A stretch of DNA of 38,834 nucleotides from a virus, in the IMG/VR virus record IMGVR_UViG_3300013115_000530, positions 1-38,834 of that record. The stretch is one strand, 5' to 3'. Position numbers and translations under genes: made by a program. Below, piece after piece: positions 27,396-36,720 of the stretch. Within the stretch, counting starts at the first letter, position 1, and every line of letters begins with the position of its first letter. The notes under the pieces are model-generated. The model ran no database searches. It saw only the letters and a program-made list of their open reading frames with translations, and was not told where the DNA came from.

Positions 27396-28292
27396 TTACC
27401 CCTGTAAAAGTTGCATCACAGTCTGTGATAATTGCTGTGCCTGTGCCATCATAGCAATTGCTGTTTGCTGTCGAATCTGAAAATCAGCAAGAGATGCCAT
27501 CTCAGCTGCTTCATCAAAATCCAATATAGTGGCAAGACTTTCTTCATTCATTGTAATCATATTACCCAAATGACTGATAGTAAAGTTAAACCGTTCTATT
27601 TTGGAATTGACATCAGATGCTTCTGCTTGAACAGTTGCAATGGCTGCATCTATACGTGCCAGTGCATCATCGGCATCATTTGCACTGTCGATGGATGTGG
27701 CAGAAACCGATACTGTATCACCTTCAGAATAAGTACCACCCTGACCATTATCTTGACCAATACGGCTATCTCCTGATTCCAATGTAACCGTATGTGCAGT
27801 CAATTTCAATCCATCAAGGGTGAGATCTGATAATTCAATATTGATGGTTTCGGTTTCCCCCGTACCTTCGATAATAACATCTCTATCACCAAAAGTACCA
27901 TCCAATAATTCAACCCCATCGTAAGACGTATTCTTTGCCACATAATCTAATTCCTTTACTAATGCATTAAACTCATCAATCAACCCTGCTCTAGTATCAG
28001 CAGTCAAATCCTCATTTGAAGATTGAACTGCAATTTCTCGCAATCGAGTTAGAACGTCATTGACAGAACTAACACCACTCTCTGCTGTTTCTAGCAAATC
28101 TTGACTTTGTTTGACAGTACTATTTGCCAATCGCAACATACTCAAGGTGGTGTTCATTCTCCCAACCCTTGCTTTATCACCAGAATTTAGATCTGGTCGT
28201 CCTTCTGCAATTCTACGCATTGAATTTTCAACTTCTCTAGTTGCCAGTGCATACTGCGTGTGTGCTTTTGCGGTTATTCCACTAAGATTCAT
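27396..28292 (-). CDS. Phage-encoded flagellin homologue
   Basis: This 298-residue protein has both conserved ends of bacterial flagellin (FliC). Residues 1-135: INLSGITAKAHT-like start (MNLSGITAKA), then SMLRLANSTVKQSQDLLETA, LTRLREIAVQSSNEDLTADT and YDGVELLDG. The L-R-E-I-A-V-Q-S motif is a flagellin hallmark. Residues 205-298: ALARIDAAIATVQAEASDVN, RFNFTISHLGNMITMNEESL and a hydrophobic helical end (AIAMMAQAQQLSQTVMQLL). A short middle domain (about 140-205) is what a compact flagellin has. I chose ATG 28292, five bases after AAGGGGAA, over 28313. It lies directly upstream of gp33, on the same strand. Its role in a phage is unknown: virion fibre, decoy or host-surface change are possible. 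Confidence 0.87.
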   Translation of the reverse strand: MNLSGITAKAHTQYALATREVENSMRRIAEGRPDLNSGDKARVGRMNTTLSMLRLANSTVKQSQDLLETAESGVSSVNDVLTRLREIAVQSSNEDLTADTRAGLIDEFNALVKELDYVAKNTSYDGVELLDGTFGDRDVIIEGTGETETINIELSDLTLDGLKLTAHTVTLESGDSRIGQDNGQGGTYSEGDTVSVSATSIDSANDADDALARIDAAIATVQAEASDVNSKIERFNFTISHLGNMITMNEESLATILDFDEAAEMASLADFQIRQQTAIAMMAQAQQLSQTVMQLLQG

Positions 28293-28315
28293 ACGAATTC
28301 CCCTTTTTTCCATTA

Positions 28316-28540: not shown

Positions 28541-28714
28541 CTACTTTAGTGCATCAAACAAAATTGCAGAAAACGTTGTTGGTGGAACACGTTGATGCCT
28601 ACGTTTGTTCAAATCGTTTTCTAGTTTTATGGATTTCTCTATTTTCTCTACTCGTTGTACCTTTGATCTATCGGGAAACAACAACCGTTTCCAATTGACA
28701 TTTGGTATCCACAT
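28541..28714 (-). CDS. Small basic protein, unknown
   Basis: This 57-residue frame reads MWIPNVNWKRLLFPDRSKVQ, then RVEKIEKSIKLENDLNKRRH and QRVPPTTFSAILFDALK. Its ATG at 28714 overlaps the stop of the upstream gene as TAATG, and GAGAGG lies about nine bases before it, both signs of coupled translation. It fills the gap between two longer genes. The basic, helical character could suit binding of nucleic acid. Function unknown. Confidence 0.6.
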   Translation of the reverse strand: MWIPNVNWKRLLFPDRSKVQRVEKIEKSIKLENDLNKRRHQRVPPTTFSAILFDALK

Positions 28715-29370
28715 TATACAAACCTCTCTCCAAAATCTTGTTTATAATCTAAAACGGGGCCGATCTCCGTATCTCTCCAATCACTATTAATAAATGCCGA
28801 CCTTGCCCATTCACCCATACGTGAAAGTTTCTGTGCCTTGTGTTCAGTAATTACTACTTCCTCAAAGACAAACGGACGACCTTTCATCTTGGTCATAAAT
28901 TCACCTGACTTCCCAAATATTGGATTGCCAACTGGAATGACGTTTTTAAAGCCAGGAAATTCAGCATCGTTCGTACCGATCAGTTTGCCATTCTTAGCAC
29001 CCTTCTCTACGTACAAAACAGAATCTTGATACCAATCAATCCCTGCTTGTGTAACATCCTTTTGCAAGTTACCCGTATCATCTTGGTCAACCACAAAGAA
29101 AGTTACTTCCCCAACCTCTTTGGCATCATCTGTACCATAGTCCTCAATATACTTACCCTGCACCACTGTAATATTATATTTCTTGCTCAGTTGTGCTTTC
29201 AACTGAGAATTACGTTTCAAATTTTGTTTACGTGTAACCGTAACTTTCTCTCCGTTTTCATCCTTGATAAACCCTCTGAACGCAGTTATCATTGCAGTAT
29301 CATGTTCCATCATATGCTGACGCATTCTGGATAAACTACTTTCATTGACAACTTGCCTATAGTCTTTCAT
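28714..29370 (-). CDS. Hypothetical protein, weakly DUF3293-like
   Basis: This 218-residue protein begins MKDYRQVVNESSLSRMRQHM, followed by AMITAFRGFIKDE, then NLKRNSQLKAQLSKKY, GEVTFFVVD and WYQDSVLYVEKG. The order (ITA start, an N...RN...L...L helix, a flanking E-x-T-F-F-V strand and a Q-D-S-V-L-Y strand) recalls DUF3293, a small family of unknown function. This is a weak call by pattern. The end (WRDTEIGPVLDYKQDFGERF) is specific to this protein. It is coupled to the next small gene. Confidence 0.6.
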   Translation of the reverse strand: MKDYRQVVNESSLSRMRQHMMEHDTAMITAFRGFIKDENGEKVTVTRKQNLKRNSQLKAQLSKKYNITVVQGKYIEDYGTDDAKEVGEVTFFVVDQDDTGNLQKDVTQAGIDWYQDSVLYVEKGAKNGKLIGTNDAEFPGFKNVIPVGNPIFGKSGEFMTKMKGRPFVFEEVVITEHKAQKLSRMGEWARSAFINSDWRDTEIGPVLDYKQDFGERFV

Positions 29371-29380
29371 CTATAACCCC

Positions 29381-29542
29381 TTATATTGGTGTGTTTAACC
29401 AATTTACTATCTTACCCCAAAAGGTAAGTTTTTTGATTTTTTTCTTTGCTGATTTCTTCTTGTATCGTACACCTGTATGAACTCCAAACTCTGCATTATC
29501 CAATTTTCTTTTTAATCCACGTTTGAATTTTGTTGATTTCAT
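29381..29542 (-). CDS. Small highly basic protein
   Basis: This protein of about 53 residues (KSTKFKRGLKRKLDNAEFGV, then YKKKSAKKKIKKLTFWGKIV) is strongly positively charged. The frame is open to 29575 (64 residues), but the ATG at 29542 gives a smaller overlap with the PQ-loop gene (47 bases). Overlap of this size is unusual in this genome, so the start is unsure. Function unknown; binding to DNA, RNA or membranes is possible. Confidence 0.5.
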   Translation of the reverse strand: MKSTKFKRGLKRKLDNAEFGVHTGVRYKKKSAKKKIKKLTFWGKIVNWLNTPI

Positions 29543-29810
29543 TTTTATTGTAATCCTTATAGATAGACCAAACAACCATACACAAAAAAGTCATTATAAA
29601 CCCTAATGTGTAGTTGAGAATCAACCATATTGCATTGACTTCTCTAATTAAAACGTATCCTAAACCACACCAATACCCTAAAGCATTGATAATTAACATC
29701 ACCAAACTCACATCTTTTGAACTCTTACGTCTAACCATCTTTACTATCTGTGGTATATATGCACCACTAAAAGAAATGGTCAATATTGCCCCGAAAATGC
29801 TATCTATCAT
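29496..29810 (-). CDS. SemiSWEET-like PQ-loop membrane protein
   Basis: This 104-residue protein has three membrane helices: about 3-20, 39-57 and 61-84. The first carries the PQ-loop signature (SFSGAYIPQIVKMVRRKSSK, Pro-Gln then a polar loop), then LVMLIINALGYWCGLGYVLI and WLILNYTLGFIMTFLCMVVW. Three helices in about 90 residues is exactly the SemiSWEET plan; these proteins dimerise to make a sugar uniporter. The ATG is supported by AAGGGAT about ten bases upstream. Its substrate in a phage-infected cell is unknown. It lies downstream of the tmRNA locus. Confidence 0.75.
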   Translation of the reverse strand: MIDSIFGAILTISFSGAYIPQIVKMVRRKSSKDVSLVMLIINALGYWCGLGYVLIREVNAIWLILNYTLGFIMTFLCMVVWSIYKDYNKNEINKIQTWIKKKIG

Positions 29811-29927: not shown

Positions 29928-30184
29928 CGTGCCACACGATTGTATCAAGTCGGTAGTGTGGCATACCTTTATCATATCGCTTGGGTTGCTATAACTCTTG
30001 GGATATGACAGAAAATGGGCAGTTTCTGTTGACAAGTACTGCCCAAACTCCGGCCTACCTATTAGGCAGCCATGGGTAATTGATTGTAGTTTCCAATTAC
30101 TATTTTGCAACTTCTGAGTTGTTGCCACTCCATGCAATCTACTCTCCACCATCGTCGTACCTGTCGATTTCCAATTGCGCCCCC
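29928..30184 (-). ncRNA. ssrA: tmRNA coding piece of a permuted two-piece ssrA gene
   Basis: Read on the minus strand it starts with GGGGGCGCAATTGGAAATCG, the tmRNA 5' acceptor strand and D-loop region. Pseudoknot PK1 follows: ACTC/GAGT at 30127-30130 with 30116-30119, and GTTGC/GCAAC at 30121-30125 with 30107-30111. Then come AAAATAGTA and the tag frame. PK2 is formed by 30038-30045 with 30016-30023 (eight pairs) and 30024-30029 with 30008-30013 (six pairs). Further hairpins pair 30002-30008 with 29972-29978, and 29956-29963 with 29930-29937. The first seven bases pair with the acceptor piece, including G3-U70, the alanine identity pair. The 3' end is approximate. Confidence 0.85.
30062..30097 (-). 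other. tmRNA tag reading frame
   Basis: After AAAATAGTA the frame is ATT GGA AAC TAC AAT CAA TTA CCC ATG GCT GCC TAA, encoding the peptide IGNYNQLPMAA. The hydrophobic ending M-A-A is the typical protease signal (like LAA or VAA), and two stop codons follow. The resume codon, placed by comparison with E. coli (ATA GTC GCA), would be Ile rather than the usual Ala. Confidence 0.75.
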
Positions 30185-30188
30185 GTAA

Positions 30189-30260
30189 TGGAGTAGATCG
30201 GATTTGAACCGATGACCCCTTGCTTGCAAAGCAAGTATTCTCCCACTGAACTACTACCCC
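30189..30260 (-). tRNA. tRNA-Ala(UGC), inside the tmRNA intervening segment
   Basis: The minus-strand cloverleaf is complete: acceptor GGGGTAG/CTACTCC with G3-U70, D arm GTTC...GAAT, anticodon stem CTTGC/GCAAG with loop TTTGCAA (anticodon TGC), and T arm ATCGG TTCAAAT CCGAT. The discriminator is A and CCA is not encoded. It lies seven bases after the acceptor piece of tmRNA and four bases before the coding piece. Confidence 0.92.
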
Positions 30261-30267
30261 AAATGAA

Positions 30268-30338
30268 TGGTGGAGGCGAGGGGAATCGAACCCCTGTCCA
30301 GTATACCGACAATTTCGTATCAACAATTGCAAGTCCTT
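30268..30338 (-). ncRNA. ssrA: tmRNA acceptor piece of the permuted ssrA gene
   Basis: On the minus strand the end is the tmRNA T arm and acceptor: AGGGG TTCGATT CCCCT, then CGCCTCC, A and an encoded CCA ending at 30268. CGCCTCC pairs with GGGGGCG of the coding piece at all seven positions with G3-U70 as the wobble. Upstream, CAATT and AATTG can form a hairpin, and GTC...GTA can pair weakly with TAC-GAC of the coding piece as helix P2. The 5' end is placed just after the preceding gene's stop and is approximate. Confidence 0.85.
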
Positions 30339-30339
30339 G

Positions 30340-30666
30340 TTATGGTTTGTAAAAAGTTTTCAAATCTGTTTTTATTTTACCACCAATATTATCTTGATAC
30401 TCATCTTCTAGGTTCACCATTCTCGATTCTACATCGGAACAATGTTCTTTGATCCTCTTATTGACCACATCCTGTTCAACTAACAGTTGACCTTTACTAT
30501 CATTATCCACTTTGATGTCTATCTGTTCTGCACCCAAAAGGTCAATCAAATCCCGATATGTTTTCGATACATAATCAGGTAGTTGCTCTTGATCTAAACC
30601 TTTGACTTCAATACTATATTCCCTTTTGGGATTCATCGACATAACTTTAATTGAAACGTCTGGCAT
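30340..30666 (-). CDS. Hypothetical protein upstream of tmRNA
   Basis: This 108-residue protein (DVSIKVMSMNPKREYSIEVK, then YRDLIDLLGAEQIDIKVDND, VVNKRIKEHCSDVESRMVNL) looks like a small alpha/beta domain with a helical C-terminal half. No family was recognised. It starts one base after the stop of the gene before it and ends just before the tmRNA acceptor piece, so tmRNA is probably transcribed as part of the same unit. Confidence 0.65.
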   Translation of the reverse strand: MPDVSIKVMSMNPKREYSIEVKGLDQEQLPDYVSKTYRDLIDLLGAEQIDIKVDNDSKGQLLVEQDVVNKRIKEHCSDVESRMVNLEDEYQDNIGGKIKTDLKTFYKP

Positions 30667-30667
30667 A

Positions 30668-30925
30668 CTAAACTCCGTTTACTAAATCCTTTATTACATC
30701 AGCCACTACATCGGGTTCTATGTAATGATACTCACATAGAAAATGTCCGAATACATGTGGTATGTCTGCATCTTCTGTGAGTCTGACTACACTAGATGAA
30801 GTATATTCAAATTCATCCGTACTTTGTTCTATATCAGGATAGATCAGTTCAAACCTATCACACAACCTATAGAATTCACCTATTTTATTACTCAACTTAC
30901 CCTCACATGGATAATTGGATTCCAT
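30668..30925 (-). CDS. Hypothetical protein, acidic
   Basis: This 85-residue acidic protein (GKLSNKIGEFYRLCDRFELI, then YTSSSVVRLTEDADIPHVFG and CEYHYIEPDVVADVIKDLVN) has no recognised family. Its ATG overlaps the stop of the LigA-Ia-like gene as TAATG. Nothing in it resembles the missing catalytic domain of the ligase. Confidence 0.65.
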   Translation of the reverse strand: MESNYPCEGKLSNKIGEFYRLCDRFELIYPDIEQSTDEFEYTSSSVVRLTEDADIPHVFGHFLCEYHYIEPDVVADVIKDLVNGV

Positions 30926-31497
30926 TACAAATTCTCCAAATTGCTTTCGAGGTGTGCTTGTGTTTCACTACCAGAAAATCCAACTCTAACCGATGGTGAA
31001 CTCTCTTTAGTAAATTGTGGAAACCATTCTTCTAATTGCTCCAATCGTTTCATTTTCATATCATACTCATAATCTGATATTTCCACATTATCAGGATCGG
31101 TATAATAGAGTTTTTCATGGTATTCCAATTCCTTTCGCAATTCAGCAACCTCTTTCTTTGCCTTTGCTAACGTTGGAACATCATATGCATCAACACTTTC
31201 TGTGTATACAGGTGCAACAAAATTCGGATCAAAAACTCTAGGTGGTGTTTCTGAAATCCTTTCCACCAACTGATCGAAATAATCTTCACCTTTGATTTGG
31301 ATGACTGTACTTGCCGCTAATAAATTCTTAGTAATCTGATCCCGACCACCAAAATCGTATGCTTGCTGAACCATTGATTCAGCATAACTTAGTTGACTTG
31401 GATCGGGTACGTAATTCTCGACAACCATGATCTGGACATCCTTGCCTGTAACCACACTCTTTTCTGTTCTGTAAGAAACTTTCGTTTTGTTATTCAT
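30925..31497 (-). CDS. Protein with C-terminal NAD+-ligase domain Ia, no catalytic domain
   Basis: This 190-residue protein has an unrecognised N-terminal part (1-110) and a C-terminal segment (113-176) that matches domain Ia of bacterial DNA ligase LigA: AELRKELEYHEKLYYTDPDN, then VEISDYEYDMKMKRLEQLEE, FPQFTKESSPSVRVG. By alignment with E. coli LigA the NMN-binding residues Tyr22, Asp32, Tyr35 and Asp36 are kept (Tyr131, Asp142, Tyr145, Asp146); His23 is Tyr132, as in many LigAs. The protein stops where the adenylation domain would begin. A consensus promoter precedes it so closely that the mRNA would begin at the ATG. It may bind NAD+/NMN or be one half of a split ligase. Confidence 0.75.
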   Translation of the reverse strand: MNNKTKVSYRTEKSVVTGKDVQIMVVENYVPDPSQLSYAESMVQQAYDFGGRDQITKNLLAASTVIQIKGEDYFDQLVERISETPPRVFDPNFVAPVYTESVDAYDVPTLAKAKKEVAELRKELEYHEKLYYTDPDNVEISDYEYDMKMKRLEQLEEWFPQFTKESSPSVRVGFSGSETQAHLESNLENL

Positions 31498-35781: not shown

Positions 35782-36720
35782 TTATTCCCCCTCTGTATTT
35801 ATGACATCCTCGAAACTGACTGTGCCATTTCCGATCTGCGAAATCACCTTGCCAGCACCCCTGTTTGCCAATTTTGCCGCTGCATCTATGTTATACCCTT
35901 CTGCCACTGCATAGGCCAATACTGCTGTCACTGTATCCCCTGCACCCGTCACATCAAAAACGTTCTGGGCATCTACTTCTATTTTACTATAACCAGCATT
36001 CTTCTGGTGTAATGTCATACCATCTGCACCTTCGGTCACTAGGATATTCTCACTATCTATAATTCTACGCATTTCCCCAATCAATATACTGGTATCCTCA
36101 CCATCTATTTCATTTAGTTCCAATGATGCCTTGCTATTCACAGTACACAATGCTTGCCAACACTCACGTTTGTTGGGTTTGAAACACCAGACATCCTTGT
36201 ACTGCCAGAAGTTTTTAAACTTAGGATCGGCAATTATCTTAGTACTGAACCGACTAACCACATGGTTGATAATCTCTCTGTTGATAACCCCATAATCATA
36301 ATCAGAAAAGATTACTACATCGGTTTCGTTAGGTATGTTAGGCAAGAAACTCTCAAATACATTATCACCTTGCTGATAATCTACTCGCAATAATTGCTTT
36401 TGCCCTGCTAAGAAACGTGTTTTGGTAGTGGTTTTCCGACCCTCTACAATTTTGACTAACGATGTGTCAATCGAGTTTTGCTTGAGCAATTTCAACAACC
36501 TTGCTCCGCATTCATCATTACCGACTGCTCCCATCAGTCTAACCTTGCTATCACTGCCTAACTTAATTAGGTTGTGGGCCACATTGGCTGCACCACCTAA
36601 TGTATAGTAACTTTCATCTACGTCCAATATCTGTACTGGTGCTTCTGGTGAAATACGACTAACTGAACCAACGTGATATTGATCCAACATCAAATCACCG
36701 ATTACGAAAAAATTCTTCAT
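35782..36720 (-). CDS. Heptose-phosphate kinase-like PfkB sugar kinase
   Basis: This 312-residue protein is a PfkB kinase closest in pattern to the kinase half of HldE (RfaE domain I), which phosphorylates D-glycero-beta-D-manno-heptose 7-phosphate in LPS core synthesis. Motifs: VIGDLMLDQYHVGSVSRISP, APVQILDVDESYYTLGGAAN (substrate side, Gly42-43), GRKTTTKTRFLAGQKQLLRV, and the catalytic GAGD at 259-262 (FDVTGAGDTVTAVLAYAVAE). No cytidylyltransferase domain is attached. It follows a good AAGGAG site. It is probably an auxiliary metabolic gene altering host LPS or sugar phosphates. Confidence 0.85.
   Translation of the reverse strand: MKNFFVIGDLMLDQYHVGSVSRISPEAPVQILDVDESYYTLGGAANVAHNLIKLGSDSKVRLMGAVGNDECGARLLKLLKQNSIDTSLVKIVEGRKTTTKTRFLAGQKQLLRVDYQQGDNVFESFLPNIPNETDVVIFSDYDYGVINREIINHVVSRFSTKIIADPKFKNFWQYKDVWCFKPNKRECWQALCTVNSKASLELNEIDGEDTSILIGEMRRIIDSENILVTEGADGMTLHQKNAGYSKIEVDAQNVFDVTGAGDTVTAVLAYAVAEGYNIDAAAKLANRGAGKVISQIGNGTVSFEDVINTEGE
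35796..35803 (-). promoter_or_regulatory. Possible late promoter variant before the lysis genes
   Basis: CATAAATA on the minus strand differs from the late consensus by one base at the first position. A start near 35790 would precede the GGGGGAA site and ATG at 35778 and could drive the helix protein, FmdB and endolysin late. It lies within the end of the kinase gene. Confidence 0.35.

Follow-up and report, generated by a model that had tools for sequence, protein, structure and literature searches.

A permuted tmRNA gene with a tRNA-Ala gene in its intervening segment in a T4-like phage fragment

A permuted tmRNA gene was found on the minus strand of a 38,834-base IMG/VR virus fragment, the whole of which is referred to here as the window, and most of its intervening segment is a complete tRNA-Ala(UGC) gene. 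The locus probably (about 0.75) encodes a functional phage two-piece tmRNA, with the intact tRNA-Ala(UGC) gene in place of the usual hairpin segment and a precursor that RNase P cleaves. The same architecture recurs in other phages with at least three tRNA isotypes (Ala, Arg and Gly).

The phage fragment and its tmRNA locus

Baseplate and tail genes of T4 type are present in the window, a single metagenomic contig. It is a fragment of a marine T4-like myophage, distantly related to the Pelagibacter phages HTVC008M and Mosig and also to Melnitz. These are its closest isolates, with 37-38% identity in the baseplate wedge; its ThyX is 59.5% identical to that of Mosig. All four relatives searched (HTVC008M, Mosig, Melnitz and BUCT-ZZ01) contained a permuted tmRNA, and none of the four had a tRNA in the tmRNA segment. 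Permuted tmRNAs are thus ordinary in this phage group and common in marine T4-like phages, consistent with a report of 53 phages with two-piece tmRNA, which were aquatic for the most part (PMC9004378). An initial view that such genes are uncommon in phages, taken from the sequence-only reading of the window, is not supported.

Several other minus-strand genes were recorded in the region, namely, a flagellin-like gene with Flagellin_N and Flagellin_C Pfam matches (27396-28313) within this T4-like genome, an S-adenosylmethionine lyase family protein (PF23780) that is possibly anti-restriction (28714-29370), a 190-aa protein that is similar in its C-terminal part to the N-terminal domain of NAD-dependent DNA ligase (30925-31497) and a PfkB-family sugar kinase (35782-36720). 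No homologues were found for a neighbouring protein of 338 aa.

The tmRNA locus lies in a 530-nt gap between two genes on the same strand, 30340-30666 and 29496-29810, the latter encoding a PQ-loop membrane protein directly downstream. ARAGORN placed the permuted gene at 29971-30361(-) with the tag GNYNQLPMAA. The general Rfam model RF04321 (tmRNA_permuted) matched 30062-30331(-) over its full length (model positions 1-213) with 91.7 bits (E 1.4e-16; cut-off 47 bits). When the alpha, beta and cyano sub-models (RF01849-51), which had been suggested for the locus, were run on the window, none reached its cut-off and, for this reason, no subgroup is claimed. The standard one-piece model RF00023 scored 25.5 bits, below its cut-off of 47, and no other tmRNA reached a cut-off in the 38,834-base record; a standard one-piece tmRNA elsewhere in the record, which had been named as evidence against permutation, was accordingly not encountered. 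The assignment to the permuted tmRNAs is based on the RF04321 score, complete pairing of the acceptor strands and an AA-ending tag between two pseudoknots.

The order from 5' to 3' on the minus strand is acceptor piece, 7 nt, tRNA-Ala(UGC), 4 nt and coding piece. According to the RF04321 alignment, ARAGORN and the coordinates, the core of the acceptor piece spans 30268-30331(-) and consists of the P2 strand UGCAAU, a T-arm, the acceptor 3' strand CGCCUCC and an encoded CCA, ending with CGCCUCC-ACCA at 30268(-). The core begins at 30331, and the true 5' end may lie as far out as about 30361. Between this CCA and G1 of the coding piece is the segment of 83 nt (30185-30267(-)) that is not part of the mature tmRNA; UUCAUUU (30267-30261) precedes the tRNA-Ala and UUAC (30188-30185) follows it. 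The coding piece (29971-30184(-), 3' end approximate), delimited with ARAGORN, RF04321 and the sequence, starts with G1 of the acceptor 5' strand GGGGGCG at 30184(-), followed by the D-loop region, a P2 strand, PK1, the tag and PK2.

The two pieces are joined by two pairings: GGGGGCG and CGCCUCC, which flank the segment, pair at 7/7 positions with G3-U70, and UGCAAU (30331-30326) pairs with AUUGCA (30138-30133) as P2. PK1 is an H-type pseudoknot (30107-30130(-); GAGU/ACUC and GCAAC/GUUGC). The tag frame at 30059-30094(-), predicted by ARAGORN and coinciding with the tag position in the RF04321 alignment, ends with the stops UAA UAG; its peptide GNYNQLPMAA is not typical. PK2 (30009-30044(-)) is formed by GGGCAGU/ACUGCCC and CAGAA/UUCUG. 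An 8-bp hairpin located 3' of the coding piece (29930-29963(-)) possibly marks the tmRNA 3' end or the transcript end; it does not have the form of a standard terminator, and no terminator-like site was predicted at this hairpin. No SmpB gene was found within the 38.8-kb fragment.

The inserted tRNA-Ala(UGC), from G1 to A73, occupies 30189-30260(-) and was recognised by RF00005 with 70.4 bits, by folding and by ARAGORN, which reported tRNA-Ala(tgc) at 30188-30261(-) within the permuted tmRNA. All identity features of tRNA-Ala are present (UGC anticodon, cloverleaf, G3-U70 and A73), and the minimum free energy (MFE) fold of the isolated tRNA is the cloverleaf with -22.0 kcal/mol. It lacks an encoded CCA and thus requires CCA addition. 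Both Rfam scores and ARAGORN bear out the central claim of the sequence-only reading, a permuted two-piece tmRNA whose segment consists mostly of a complete tRNA-Ala. The ends given there for the two pieces and the 83-nt segment were likewise correct, as were the seven acceptor pairs with G3-U70 and the readable PK1, tag frame and PK2.

tRNAs and tRNA-like elements in other tmRNA segments

The usual segment of a permuted tmRNA is a hairpin with a long closing stem, e.g. TAAGCACAC...GTGTGCTTATGAT, and is otherwise highly variable in length and sequence. The acceptor strands paired 7/7 in 209 of 215 distinct permuted-type sequences from viral contigs with many compensatory types, so the paired conservation on which the interpretation of the window had been staked was observed. 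Small reading frames following GGAG were noticed inside the segments of L121 (158 nt) and Melnitz (L186, 142 nt), and that of Melnitz extends from the segment into the coding piece.

With default thresholds, ARAGORN detected a tRNA in one of 177 distinct permuted segments from viral contigs, namely, that of the window. These segments were mostly 62-92 nt long and longer ones were not sampled free of bias; intact tRNAs are thus rare at segment lengths of 62-92 nt. Searches with exact tRNA-Ala patterns returned no second tRNA-Ala case in IMG/VR or in GTDB genome contigs. Fourteen GTDB contig matches were rejected, as ARAGORN predicted a tmRNA in none of them (0/14) and they were mostly ordinary tRNA genes or arrays. 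The IMG/VR contigs L122, L123 and L126 were dismissed because their tRNA-Ala is upstream of a standard-type tmRNA start and outside any segment, and the other IMG/VR matches were chance matches.

Further cases came from a search of viral contigs that required a T-loop inside the segment; this set is therefore ascertained for the T-loop, and the cases are those among the matches listed. Within segments of RF04321 matches, tRNA-Arg(UCU) was found in L416 (69.4 bits) and L429 (70.7 bits) and tRNA-Gly(UCC) in L441 (57.5 bits), while odd or degenerate tRNAs above the cut-off were present in L477 (57.7 bits) and L415 (40.2 bits). The prediction in L374 was spurious, and L502 was rejected as an intact tRNA with only 24.3 bits. 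The L416 and L429 contigs carry T4-like replication genes and the L441 contig a head maturation protease and an endolysin. CCA is encoded in the tRNA-Gly of L441 and appears to be encoded in both tRNA-Arg genes. As the same build with different tRNAs occurs in other phages, it is recurrent and not specific for alanine, and an assembly error is unlikely. The alanine theme emphasised at the outset is consequently not essential.

The tRNA-bearing segments of L416 and L429 are 95.5% identical, whereas the flanking tmRNA parts share 68-71%, which would fit selection on the tRNA or a recent transfer. In L441, the junction CCA-ATTT-tRNA-Gly resembles the T4 tRNA-Leu/tRNA-Gly junction CCA-AATTT-tRNA-Gly. 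This likeness points to recombination with a tRNA array at the shared T-arm and CCA of the acceptor piece.

A T-arm near the 3' strand of a closing stem of 9-11 bp was seen in 16 of 35 segments, compared to 0.005 in shuffles, among the matches listed of the T-loop-ascertained set. The strict T-arm test on 167 of the 177 segments gave 0 against 0.005 expected, so this tRNA-like class is also rare. One element is common to the segments of L053, L214, L448, L451, L452, L462, L476, L479, L492 and L466. It combines a D-loop-like GTGGGAA loop with a GGTTCRAATCC T-arm, and its closing stem covaries, 9 of its 12 pairs having changed on both sides; L053 matched no Rfam family besides the tmRNA ones. 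Judging from the T-arm beside the closing stem in several families, such segments may be tRNA-derived or tRNA-mimicking. L427 and L442 each contain two T-arm-like hairpins within a single segment.

Proposed processing and alternative explanations

Single-unit transcription, cleavage, charging of the tRNA and function are proposed as follows. One minus-strand transcript would span the acceptor piece, the tRNA-Ala and the coding piece. One cut by host RNase P, at the 5' end of the tRNA-Ala, would free the acceptor piece, whose 7-nt trailer would be removed back to the CCA. Another RNase P cut, immediately before G1 of the coding piece, would leave the tRNA-Ala with a 4-nt trailer that is trimmed before a CCA-adding enzyme supplies its CCA. 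Three RNAs would thus arise from one transcript: the tmRNA pieces, once paired, would rescue ribosomes together with host SmpB, while the tRNA-Ala would enter the translating pool. The segment itself may be a slot into which recombination with phage tRNA arrays brings tRNAs, and some of these tRNAs would have decayed to tRNA-like elements.

Forcing the precursor to the native tRNA, acceptor stem, T-arm and P2 gave -121.0 kcal/mol versus a free MFE of -123.6, a cost of 2.6 kcal/mol. The functional reading is favoured because of this low cost, both RNAs scoring far above their cut-offs, the same build in other phage contigs, the high identity of the L416 and L429 segments relative to their flanks, the T4-like junction of L441 and the T-arms beside closing stems in many segments, which covary in one family. 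Counted against it are the non-native fold of the free MFE, a precursor stability not above that of shuffles (z -1.45), the sub-models that were not passed, the atypical tag, the missing SmpB in the fragment, the lone metagenomic contig, the failure to find a close relative and the plain segments of the nearest isolates.

At somewhat less than even odds, the tRNA is a neutral passenger from an array that recombined beside the acceptor piece, where any spacer would serve and the tmRNA is processed as usual. The variability of segments, their capacity for other cargo such as the small reading frames of L121 and Melnitz and the L441 junction all agree with such a passenger, but the Arg-bearing segments are far more conserved than their flanks and degenerate segments retain a T-arm and a stacked stem together with a D-loop-like GG, as would be expected if processing required them to stay tRNA-shaped. 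It is unlikely that the tmRNA copy has decayed and that the tRNA-Ala alone is in use; the odd tag, the fragment without SmpB and the sub-models not reaching their cut-offs would suit decay, which would yet be expected to break some of the acceptor stem, T-arm, P2, PK1, double-stop tag frame and PK2, all of which are intact. It is very improbable that the tRNA gene came to lie inside the tmRNA gene through a chimeric assembly. Although the exact locus is known from one metagenomic contig and IMG/VR pattern searches found no second copy, the tRNA sits exactly within the removable segment and unrelated phage contigs have the same build with other tRNAs.

Beyond the functional reading of the window, it is conceivable, and offered tentatively, that the segments of phage two-piece tmRNA genes are tRNA-processing modules. 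Intact tRNAs (Ala, Arg and Gly) and several families of tRNA-like elements lacking an anticodon would then occupy them because RNase P and 3'-end enzymes are recruited by the tRNA elbow to split the precursor, the tRNA-like families being decayed tRNAs.

Relation to known systems and implications

In T4, several tRNAs are cut by tRNA enzymes from the single transcript of a tRNA array. The window locus would resemble this array (tRNA-Leu/tRNA-Gly) in yielding several RNAs from one transcript, and the T4 junction resembles that of L441, but the T4 array contains no tmRNA. The window shares piece order, the acceptor stem between the pieces, G3-U70, tag, PK1 and PK2 with RF04321 and with the ssrA genes of Caulobacter, cyanobacteria and betaproteobacteria; those ssrA genes have a hairpin segment where the window has a complete tRNA gene. 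Phage group and gene order are as in Melnitz, Mosig and HTVC008M (PMC9004378), whose segments are plain or ORF-bearing and, unlike that of the window, without tRNA.

Cleavage of permuted tmRNA transcripts by tRNA-processing enzymes has been described (PMC11915505). The same work devotes one sentence to a permuted tmRNA, nominally archaeal, whose intervening sequence contains a tRNA-Ala, which is termed a unique feature. This sequence, GCA-2688965__sp002688965.2, is from a possibly misbinned MAG and was given without further analysis. By that description alone, it is like the window in having an intact tRNA-Ala. No other description of a tRNA within a tmRNA segment was found in the literature searched, so the assumption that no such tmRNA had been described was almost right, this single sentence being the exception. 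The window gene is a permuted tmRNA variant and not a new kind of RNA; what is new is the tRNA within the segment as a recurrent phage feature.

In practical terms, real tmRNA genes will be lost to filters that discard any tmRNA prediction overlapping a tRNA. For phage biology, what was a one-line curiosity becomes a gene architecture that recurs with at least three tRNA identities. It provides a model, concrete enough to be tested, of how the precursors of two-piece tmRNAs may be cut and of how parts may be exchanged between phage tRNA arrays and tmRNA.
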